Shown here in pieces: positions 6,101 through 32,195 of a stretch of DNA of 35,739 nucleotides (position 1 is the stretch's first letter; every line of letters begins with the position of its first letter). The notes beneath the pieces were generated by a model. The model did not search any database, was not told the origin of the DNA, and saw nothing but the letters and a program-made list of their open reading frames with translations. The stretch is from Baffinella frigidus. Its lineage: Eukaryota; Cryptophyceae; Cryptomonadales; Baffinellaceae. The DNA lies in contig MU646520.1 of NCBI GenBank assembly GCA_026770585.1, positions 212,175-247,913 of the forward strand, written 5' to 3'. Both the position numbers and the translations under genes were made by a program.

Positions 6101-9100
6101 GCCGAAAATCCCTTCGTAGCCCACTGTGTGGTTTGTACGGGGTTGGCCGCGTTGCTTTAATTTGTGTACGGGGTTGGTCACTTGCCTTTAATTTTTGGAC
6201 GGGGTTGGTCACGTAGAGCGTTTGCGGTAATTGTTTTCCGTTTTGGACGTACGGTTTTCCGGTTTTCCGGTTTTTTAAAATGTTGTAAAGGTCGTTGAAT
6301 GTTTTAAATGGACACTTCTCTGGTACAAATGAATCGGGGGGGGGGGCAAATGAAAACCGGAAAACCGGAAAACCGCACGTCCAAAACGGACAACAATTAC
6401 CGCAAACGCTCTAGGGGTTGGTCACGTTGCTGTAATTCGCGTAAGAAGAAAAGCCCAACGCGGTGGACTTAGTTGGACGCACATCAATACAAAATTTACA
6501 AAATTACAAAATTACAAAAATACGAGTTAGCCCTTCAAAACACCCAAACTTGCTCAAACCCCTTTTTACACAAACTTGCTTAAACCCCCAAAGAGTACGT
6601 TCCTCTCTAGCGTTGGCTCTCGGTGAGCTCTCCCTCTCTCTCTTTCTCTCTCTCTCTCTCTCTCTATCTCTTTCCCTCTCTCTCCCTCTCTCTCTCCCTC
6701 CCTCCCTCTCTCTCTCTCTCTCTCCCTCTCGCTGTCCCTCTCGGTGGCACTGGCGCTCGGCAGTATCTAGCTCTGTCTCACTCGGGTTGACTAAATCGAT
6801 TATGTCCTTTTATTCGACCCACATCGTCAAAAGTCTACTTTTTCAAGGGAATTTATCAACTTTTGGCGAACCGTTGCGATTTGGGCTCGACATTTTGTCG
6901 AGCCCGATTCAAGTGGAGCAGAGCTAGAGTATCGGAGGTGGCACGGCCAAGGGGCGCAGCGAACTGCCGCGAGCATCTATCCCTTACGTGCCCAGGCGGT
7001 CAAATTTGACCGCCAAGAGGTCCTAGGCAGGTCCTAGGGCCCTCCGGTAGGGCGTATGGGCCTACTCACCACTTAAGGAACAGCAATGCCTGAGCGCAGA
7101 AAGGGAGAGTTGTGCTGTGAGCATTCAAAGTCGCTTCGAAGTCCGCTGTTTGGGTTGGCGTTCGGCATTGAGGACAACCTGTTCTTCCTGAGGCGGGCCA
7201 GGCGCCTTTTCTCCGCCTCCTCCACTTAGCAGCGACAGACCACTTAGCAGCGACAGACCACTTAGCAGCGACCGAGGCCCTTTTTGCCTTAGCTTTAAGG
7301 CGGAACGCGGTTGGAATCCAATGCAACTGGATAAGATTCTAGTACACAACGTTTAGATGGACTGTATCCGTGAAGCCCCCGGTGGCTGCTCAGTGGTTGG
7401 ACGCCCGGGAAGCGGGTGGCGCCGCTGCAGCCTCTCTCTCCCTCTCCCTCCCTCTCTCTCTCCCTCTCTCTCTCTGTCTCGCTCTCTCTCTCTCTCTCGC
7501 GCGCGCGCTCTCTCTCTATCTCTCTCTCTCCCTCCCTCCCTCCCTCTCTCCTTCTCTCTCTCTCCCTCTCTCTCTCTCTAGCGCTGAGTGTGAGGATAAC
7601 CTCTTCTTCCTGAGGCGGGCCAGGCGCTTCTTCTCAGCCACCTTCTGCTTCGCGACCATCGTCGCCTTCACGTGCTGCCAAATTCATAGGGAAACGGGTG
7701 TTCATAGGGAAACGGGTCAAAAATCCGTTTCATAGGGAAACGGATGAGAGCAGCATCGTTGCCTTCACGTGCTGCCAAATTCATAGGAAAACGGTGTTCA
7801 TAGGGAAACGGGTCAAAAATCCGTTGCCAAATTCTTAGGGAAACGGTTTTCATAGGGAAACGGGTCCGAGATCCGTTGCCAAATTCATAGGGAAACGGTG
7901 TTCATAGGGAAACGGGTCAGAGATCCGTTGCCAAATTCATAGGGAAACGGTGTTCATAGGCAAACGGGTCAGTGATCCGTTCCATAGGGAAACGGATGAG
8001 AGCAGCATCGTCGTCTTCACGTGCTGCCAAATCCACGTCCACATAAGTGAAGCGTCAACGTAGCCTTGCGGCACGAGGATAACCTGTTGTTCTTGAGGCG
8101 GACGAGTGGGACGTCATTCAGTGGGAAACGCTTTTGATTTAAAACTTTCTGGCGATGAAATTTCGGATGAGAGCACCATCGTCGTCTTCGCGTGCTGCCG
8201 AATTTCATGGGGAAACGAATCTAATTTAAAAAACTTTCTGGCAATGAAATTTAGGGCCTTTCTGCTGCCTCCGAAAAGGTCTCTTTTTCACATAAGTGCC
8301 AAAACATCGTCCAGGGCTTTGAGCCATTGGACAGAAAATCCGGAAAAACTTTGGGCCCGGATTTTTCGACCTCAAAGTTTTCGAGCCATTTTCCATTTTT
8401 CTTGGAAAGATTTTGGACCAAGTGGCGCGGGGTGGGGATTTGCCGTGGCGCGCTCCCCGCGGGGGGCGGGGGGGGCGCCGCGGCATGTGAGGCACCATCA
8501 GACGCGGCTTCGCGAGGCGGCTGGCACCGATTTCTGTAAAGCAAAAAGGGGGCTCCGCGCCACTTGCCCGAAACATCCGGCAAGATCCGGGACCTTTGGG
8601 GAAAAGCAACAAAACGGAGCCCGGAAATTTCGGAAAAGCCCTCCAAATTTTCCCTTCGTTTTTTGGACTTTTTGGTTTTGCAACAGAAAGGCACTCAACC
8701 TTTCTGGCAATGAAATTTCGGATGAGAGCATCATCGTCGTCTTCACGTGCTGCCAACTTTCTTAGGGAAACGGTTTTCATAGGGAAACAGTTTTCGTAGG
8801 GAAACGGTTTTCATAGGGAAACGGTTTTCATAGGGAAACGTTTTTCATAGGGAAACGGTTTTCATAGGGAAACGGTTTTCATAGGGGGACGGTTTTCATA
8901 GGGAAACGAATCACCGATCCGTTTCATAGGGAAACGGATGCGAGCAGCATCGTCGTCGTCGCGTGCTGCCACCCCCCCCCAAAGTGTTTACAGGTTATGG
9001 TTCAAGGCGGAGGTTACCCCCCTCGTGCATTTCACTGGCAAGGTTTCTCCCCTCTTGTTTTTCCAACCTCAAGTGGTCTCAGGGCTGACCACCCACACAG

Positions 9101-31829: not shown

Positions 31830-32195
31830 GAGCTTGACCATCTCGGCCTCGAATTCTCCCTCACCCTCTAGCCTCTAGCGTAAATCACCCGCTGTTCTCC
31901 CTCACGCTCTAGCCTCTACATGTGGGGGTGATTTCCCCTAAAGGCTAGAGCTTGAGGAAGAACGTGATTTCCCCTACAGGGGTGCCCCGCTCATAAGAAA
32001 CCAACCACCCCTAGGACCCTACAGTAGGCCTATGCCTAGGGCCCTACGGTGGTCCTCGGGGGGTGGGCGTTTCTTATGAGCGAGGTACCCCTATAGGCTA
32101 GAGCTTGACCACCTCTGTCTCGAGTTCTCCCTCACCCTCTAACCTCCAGGGGAAATCACTGTACTATATTTCTCCCTCACGCTCCAGCGACACGC
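31830..32195 (+). repeat. Copies of the exon 11 end beyond the stop
   Basis: TTGACCATCTCGGCCTCGAA, TTCTCCCTCACCCTCTAG (31834), TGTTCTCCCTCACGCTCTAG (31891), TTGACCACCTCTGTCTCGAG, TTCTCCCTCACCCTCTAA (32106) and TTCTCCCTCACGCTCCAG (32169) repeat GACCACCTCGGCCTCGAATT, CTCCCTCACCCTCTAG. Some carry a GGCTAGAGCTTGA lead. Confidence 0.85.
31973..32095. mobile_element. MITE-like family E, copy 4
   Basis: CTACAGGGGTGCCCCGCTCA, TAAGAAACC and TTTCTTATGAGCGAGGTACC, CCTATAG as ends, with CTAGGACCCTACAGTAGGCC inside. Confidence 0.85.

Follow-up and report, generated by a model that had tools for sequence, protein, structure and literature searches.

Several systems have been described in which repeated sequence lies at or near exon-intron borders. 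In the available excerpts of PMC7789003, PMC10666404, and PMC9860276, introner elements carry terminal inverted repeats (TIRs), with short direct repeats at the splice sites. Excerpts of PMC3443670 and PMC2891723 treat the gain of introns when an exon segment containing AGGT is duplicated in tandem in the genome. The available part of Rogers and Bendich 2025 (PMC11782384) describes direct repeats near intron borders, one at or near each intron end, and dinoflagellate introns with identically repeated boundary sequences are attributed to PMC5032977 in the excerpt of PMC7789003. Among the matches listed from the open-access literature, no paper describing exon-edge ladders, that is, series of copies (rungs) of an exon-edge segment in nearby DNA, was found.

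The locus analyzed here shares features with several of these systems. Its introns are also rich in hairpin/TIR elements; unlike the introners of the excerpts, however, the listed elements end within 5 bp of a single splice edge among 22 (the e7 acceptor, 2 bp short of which the hairpin element at 24318 to 24504 stops), and rungs measure about 20 to 60 bp or more, not 3 to 9 bp. Local tandem duplication involving splice sites is common to this locus and the intron gain model, but that model, as excerpted, predicts intron ends matching neighboring exon ends (the end of the intron like that of the upstream exon, its start like that of the next exon), and here own-intron scores were no higher than other-intron scores. 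Direct repeats around exon-intron borders recall the available part of PMC11782384, with the difference that copies of one edge here stand on that edge's side. As in an intronic minisatellite or local tandem duplication, copies are direct and head to tail, units are slippage sized, and decay is near neutral; unlike a minisatellite, the units cover splice junctions at roughly half the edges of one gene, and many inserted elements have spread them. Adjacent head-to-tail copies are plain at the e11 acceptor and in the arrays by minus exon 7674; elsewhere they are approximate after element removal.

The window, by which we mean the whole 35.7-kb stretch of DNA analyzed, is spliced eukaryotic DNA with a G+C content of mostly 47 to 60%. 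CT/GA microsatellites and telomere-like TTTAGGG arrays occur in it, together with dozens of hairpin (terminal-inverted-repeat) elements, and searches of the DNA against Rfam (gathering scores) and for tRNAs gave no match. A plus-strand gene of 12 exons (15340 to 31717) was reconstructed from reading frames and GT-AG sites. The first build gave 369 residues, and 358 remained once the e5 acceptor was shifted from 20542 to 20575 (20574/20575) because of the homolog alignment (FFGQ/NSGL). The 369-residue version matched Pfam Exo_endo_phos at 2e-8, a protein search returned 15 proteins (best by E value, 47% identity over 91%), and a search of solved structures gave nothing at 0.001. No locus coding for relatives was confirmed. 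An alignment of eight homologs supports e1 to e11 as coding. In P0006, the protein closest to it (71% identity over 37%), e1, e2, and e3 are fused, after which homology is lost; this fusion (15553 to 18097) hints at, and would fit, a sister genome without introns between these three exons. Of the 11 introns in the plus gene, 10 have phase 0. The minus gene was modeled from open frames, third-position G+C, and splice signals only, the plus gene alone having homology-supported exons. With frames read by eye, the two genes appear divergent, with a short common upstream region at 15200 to 15340. A 10-N assembly gap lies within a CT microsatellite at 24073 to 24082.

For the edge search, 60 bases on either side of each edge were compared with 4.5 kb on both sides. 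The plus gene contributed 23 sites (22 splice edges and the stop end); the e0 start, which is not a splice site, was also run and gave no copy. A nonmicrosatellite local copy was present at 12 of 23 sites (Table 1). Nine of these were spanned, one of them (the e10 acceptor) at a score of 16 only, and three (the e6 acceptor, the e7 donor, and the stop end) were reached within 0 to 3 bases without being spanned. The initial annotation had placed copies at nearly every exon boundary, a claim that must be reduced to about half. The other 11 sites had no copy in this search save microsatellite, hairpin-element, exon-interior, or weak matches: microsatellites only at the e3 and e8 donors, a hairpin-element match and a piece, internal to the exon, of the copy of the e7 donor at the e7 acceptor, and one weak wrong-side match (20794 to 20817; E, 0.019) at the e6 donor. 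Neither of the short introns (123 and 162 bp) had an edge copy. Among the four minus exons tested (12461, 7674, 10137, and 14647, with 10137 picked by eye), ladders were found at 12461 and 7674; exon 10137 had a single weak donor copy, and exon 14647 matched hairpin elements only.

Most of the ladder sizes first reported were recovered. The three copies at the exon 9 donor, the one acceptor and three donor copies of exon 5, and the five acceptor copies of minus exon 7674 (all spanning the site) were found as described, as were the two acceptor copies of minus exon 12461, with one additional partial piece. The fivefold exon 11 acceptor comprises four intronic copies and the exon's own. At the exon 10 donor, the four reported copies are four matching pieces but three rungs, one of them split, and at the minus 12461 donor five of the six reported copies were found at the threshold used here. 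The ladder pattern is real but was overstated.

Table 1. Exons and exon-edge copies in the window
Feature	Position	Strand	Remarks
Exon e0	15340..15429	+	Start codon candidate; weakest exon; homologs align only loosely at start
Exon e1 (exon 1 of the initial annotation)	15553..15717	+	Frame/splice sites and homologs
Exon e2	15880..15951	+	Frame/splice sites and homologs
Exon e3	17996..18097	+	Frame/splice sites and homologs
Exon e4	19536..19613	+	Frame/splice sites and homologs
Exon e5	20575..20647	+	Frame/splice sites; acceptor set by homologs
Exon e6	22645..22790	+	Frame/splice sites and homologs
Exon e7	24507..24584	+	Frame/splice sites and homologs
Exon e8	25962..26033	+	Frame/splice sites and homologs; no significant edge copy except microsatellite
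Exon e9	27757..27816	+	Frame/splice sites and homologs
Exon e10	29847..29909	+	Donor GAC/GTGCGC picked by reading frame and homologs
Exon e11, last, with stop	31640..31717	+	Frame/splice sites and homologs
Minus-gene exon 12461	12366..12461	-	Open frame and splice signals only
Minus-gene exon 7674	7601..7674	-	Open frame and splice signals only
e3 acceptor edge, three upstream copies	17538-17572, 17624-17671, 17733-17776	+	Edge search
e4 acceptor edge, upstream copy	19286..19322	+	Edge search
e5 acceptor edge, upstream copy	20395..20451	+	93% identical; AG lost
e5 donor edge, three downstream copies	20802-20825, 21207-21242, 21351-21394	+	Edge search
e6 acceptor edge, upstream copy	22475..22515	+	Reaches 2 intron bases
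e6 acceptor family, weaker members	21914-21944, 22055-22085	+	Family search
e7 donor edge, downstream copy	25287..25334	+	92% identity; extends to 3 intron bases
e9 acceptor edge or exon, upstream copies	26660-26712, 26817-26846, 27466-27514, 27595-27660	+	Edge and family search
e9 donor edge, downstream copies	27980-28021, 28350-28390, 28622-28642	+	Edge search
e10 acceptor edge, upstream copy	29720..29739	+	Weak; score 16
e10 donor edge, downstream copies	30089-30125; 30210-30232 and 30374-30405 (halves of one split rung); 30817-30850	+	
e11 acceptor array	31026..31665	+	114-bp unit; tandem from 31259
e11 stop end, downstream copies	31836-31871, 32107-32141	+	Edge search
Exon 12461 donor edge, five downstream copies	11807..12283	-	Edge search
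Exon 12461 acceptor edge, two upstream copies	12751..12896	-	Edge search
Exon 7674 acceptor edge, five upstream copies	7754..8971	-	Within or next to tandem arrays of 52 bp and 17 bp
Exon 7674 donor edge, downstream copy	7169..7221	-	Edge search

Other repeats were seen away from the modeled edges. Intronic local duplications off any known exon edge occur at 28827 to 28884 and 28961 to 29018, at 29431 to 29609, and at 19761 to 20049. Ladders at 1 to 95 (a 36-bp tandem) and 337 to 834 (another repeat family) may mark edges of unmodeled exons, and 22 bp of the last exon have a perfect inverted copy about 1.4 kb downstream, at 33060 to 33081.

Orientation and side were assessed in a uniform re-count (45 bases on either side, 3.5 kb, score 17). 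Matches with at least 40% low-complexity or at least 50% element bases were excluded, among them the e10 donor copy at 30817 to 30850 and an inverted match at 31807 to 31837. The plus gene gave 28 direct local copies versus 1 inverted copy, and 26 of the 28 direct copies stood on the exon's own side. The proposed own-side rule holds to this extent; the two exceptions in this count are upstream exon 9 copies that are also counted for the e9 acceptor. Outside the count, the weak e6 donor match is on the wrong side, as is a copy of the donor edge of minus exon 7674 at 8106 to 8075, which on the minus strand is upstream. Among 20 Markov-random sequences of equal unmasked length, no chance pairs within 2.2 kb reached a score of at least 18.

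We consider it somewhat probable that the rungs are junction-spanning tandem duplications that arose in small introns and were later spread by inserted elements. Ordinary local tandem duplication (slippage or unequal exchange, as in a minisatellite) would copy segments of about 50 to 150 bp straddling a splice junction. When an acceptor segment is doubled, only the copy contiguous with the rest of the exon could be the working edge, and the spare copy would lie upstream; a doubled donor segment would leave its spare copy downstream; and spare copies would be free to decay. Direct orientation and own-side placement would follow because the exon must stay contiguous with one copy of an in-place duplication. 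Many of the duplications would date from a short-intron stage, when most intron segments would have been near an edge, and later hairpin (TIR) elements, microsatellites, and telomere-like arrays would have pushed the copies apart into ladders.

Tandem duplication followed by spreading is taken as the most likely reading because of the 114-bp array, the rung spacings, the orientation, and the side. At the e11 acceptor, the ladder has remained a simple tandem array of period 114, the final unit of which contains the acceptor and the first 26 exon bases; the acceptor copies of minus exon 7674 likewise lie among short arrays (Table 1). Start-to-start spacings of neighboring rungs (rung starts hand listed, weak members included) fell between 45 and 150 bp in 9 of 25 cases before, and in 19 of 25 cases following, removal of listed elements and low-complexity DNA; the other six remained above 150 bp (183, 218, 251, 268, 394, and 414). 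The initial proposal of repeated local duplication at exon borders, distinct from ordinary target-site duplication, is supported. Counted against a plain tandem reading are the variation of rung lengths and boundaries within a ladder, the wrong-side minus copy, the presence of the strongest element-flank repeats in ladders, and a residual excess of repeats at edges.

The edge excess was estimated from local direct repeats in the plus gene, which at a score of 18 formed 18 families, 11 of which touch an edge. Pairs with more than 30% low-complexity or more than 40% listed-element bases were left out of the family list, and 20332/23516/24975 (which looks like a dispersed element) and 29878/30210 (part of exon 10) were counted as nontouching. 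With rotated edges, a mean of 3.8 to 3.9 families touched (maximum, 10). The null rose to 5.4 when rotation covered only sequence minus listed elements and low-complexity DNA and to 6.2 of 18 once all hairpin candidates were also removed, versus the 11 of 18 observed (P = 0.003). Because the null rises after element removal, much of the edge bias, perhaps not all, fits once-short introns. The same comparison by edges gave 11 of 23 versus 8.2 at score 18 (P = 0.13) and versus 6.6 at score 22 (P = 0.02), and with the score threshold set at 16, families touching an edge numbered 11 of 20 versus 4.4 (P = 0.001). In a per-position test at score 17, 8 of 22 edges were found versus 4.6 expected in unmasked sequence (P = 0.09) and versus 3.1 for all positions (P = 0.017); at score 28 without slack, the result was 3 of 22 versus 2.8 (P = 0.55). 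An edge preference beyond that of short introns may remain; the excess is modest and depends on counting.

This excess bears on whether duplication was targeted to edges, for example by repair of transcription-time breaks at splice junctions that copies the junction into the intron. Such targeting would account for the excess left after removal of elements and hairpins, but the side rule and direct orientation are already given by plain tandem duplication, and an excess that varies with the counting method leaves edge targeting, in our judgment, rather unlikely.

A second alternative, offered in the initial annotation, is that staggered breaks with long fill-in at element insertion made each rung pair. 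The list of hairpin elements, compiled by hand, holds 74, of which 63 have usable flanks and 11 have low-complexity flanks. Flanking direct repeats at a score of at least 15 were found at 8 of 63 elements versus 9.2 expected from position pairs of equal spacing, a null that itself includes tandem arrays (95th percentile, 30), and inverted flank repeats at 2 of 63 versus 1.0. Element insertion as a general seed finds no support in these counts. In its favor, an element lies almost exactly between two copies at 31721 to 31829 (where it separates e11 from its first stop-end copy) and at 20457 to 20531, and the four strongest flank pairs (scores of 25 to 48.5; elements at 20457, 27847, 31721, and 31128) all fall within exon-edge ladders. 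However, 4 of 6 copies of two element families have only TA on both flanks, 4 copies of two other families have no clear duplication, rungs at 30210 to 30405, 28180 to 28390, and 8075 to 8217 (partly read by eye) are interrupted by internal elements, and the element at 27847 to 27969 lacks one end. We regard fill-in as a quite improbable origin of the rungs. For the most part, the elements have the look of independent latecomers that keep rungs apart, because there is no excess of flank repeats, 4 of 6 copies in two families have TA flanks, and rungs are interrupted. A hairpin-element end searched in viral and genome collections gave no match. One hairpin element is present in two copies (13812 to 13953 and 26283 to 26424), each with its two flanks mutually inverted (CTGAT...ATCAG); the latter copy has outer arms of about 25 to 29 bp, as if the element inserts at palindrome centers.

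Rungs might also be whole-exon duplications trimmed by deletion and insertion. The copy at 27595 to 27660 includes nearly all of exon 9, another such copy was read by eye at 28180 to 28390, and both edges of minus exon 7674 are copied at 8075 to 8217. The majority of rungs, however, end within the exon, and the four e11 copies share one end point, 26 bases into the exon, so that trimming of whole exons also seems distinctly doubtful.

Rung decay was examined in 19 hand-picked alignments, a subset of the rungs, some manually lengthened or shortened by a few bases. Identity was 334 of 371 bases on the intron side and 376 of 433 on the exon side; because local alignment favors high identity, the absolute values are inflated, and the comparison between sides is the fairer one. 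The rungs look near neutral. Maintenance of rungs as decoy or alternative splice sites or exons is very unlikely: 15 of 19 rungs retain the splice dinucleotide, close to the neutral expectation of 0.81, the e5 acceptor copy has no AG, and amino-acid-changing differences between rung and exon number 27 of 46 (plus) and 17 of 33 (minus). The one point in favor of a splicing role is an excess of synonymous differences in the exon parts, 19 of 46 for the plus gene (0.28 expected; P = 0.04) and 16 of 33 for the minus gene (0.24 expected; P = 0.002), in 32 hand-chosen rows (19 plus and 13 minus), of which those from the same ladder are not independent; this excess could also arise from constraint acting solely on the real exon.

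Two further candidates were rejected. Intron birth by tandem duplication was discarded on the comparison of own-intron with other-intron scores across 11 introns (local, 6.23 versus 6.43 and 5.73 versus 6.49; anchored, 1.82 versus 1.95 and 0.55 versus 0.34), although introns 1 and 3 had seemed suggestive by eye (15 of 33 bases identical before the acceptor). A search for a dinoflagellate spliced-leader relic found none at one mismatch.

The initial annotation suggested that local duplication may be how these introns grew. Local repeats do account for 1,824 of 15,301 intron bases (12%), but elements, other hairpins, and dispersed repeats account for 8,791 (57%). About 23% of intron sequence (186 to 601 bp per long intron) lies outside elements, hairpins, dispersed repeats, low-complexity DNA, and local repeats; this unassigned share is a low estimate because a shuffled window also gives hairpin candidates (2,193 bases versus 13,841 in the real window).

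The usual account of intron growth is transposon insertion. Here, junction copies may serve as an internal marker of early intron growth, datable by strain comparison, and the own-side pattern illustrates how a simple geometric rule, that the exon is kept whole, can yield striking one-sidedness. More tentatively, and on balance unlikely, splice junctions may be hot spots of local duplication in this lineage (for example, through transcription-coupled breakage), with the copies recording the growth of each intron. If junctions were true duplication hot spots, they would represent a new mutational bias shaping genes.
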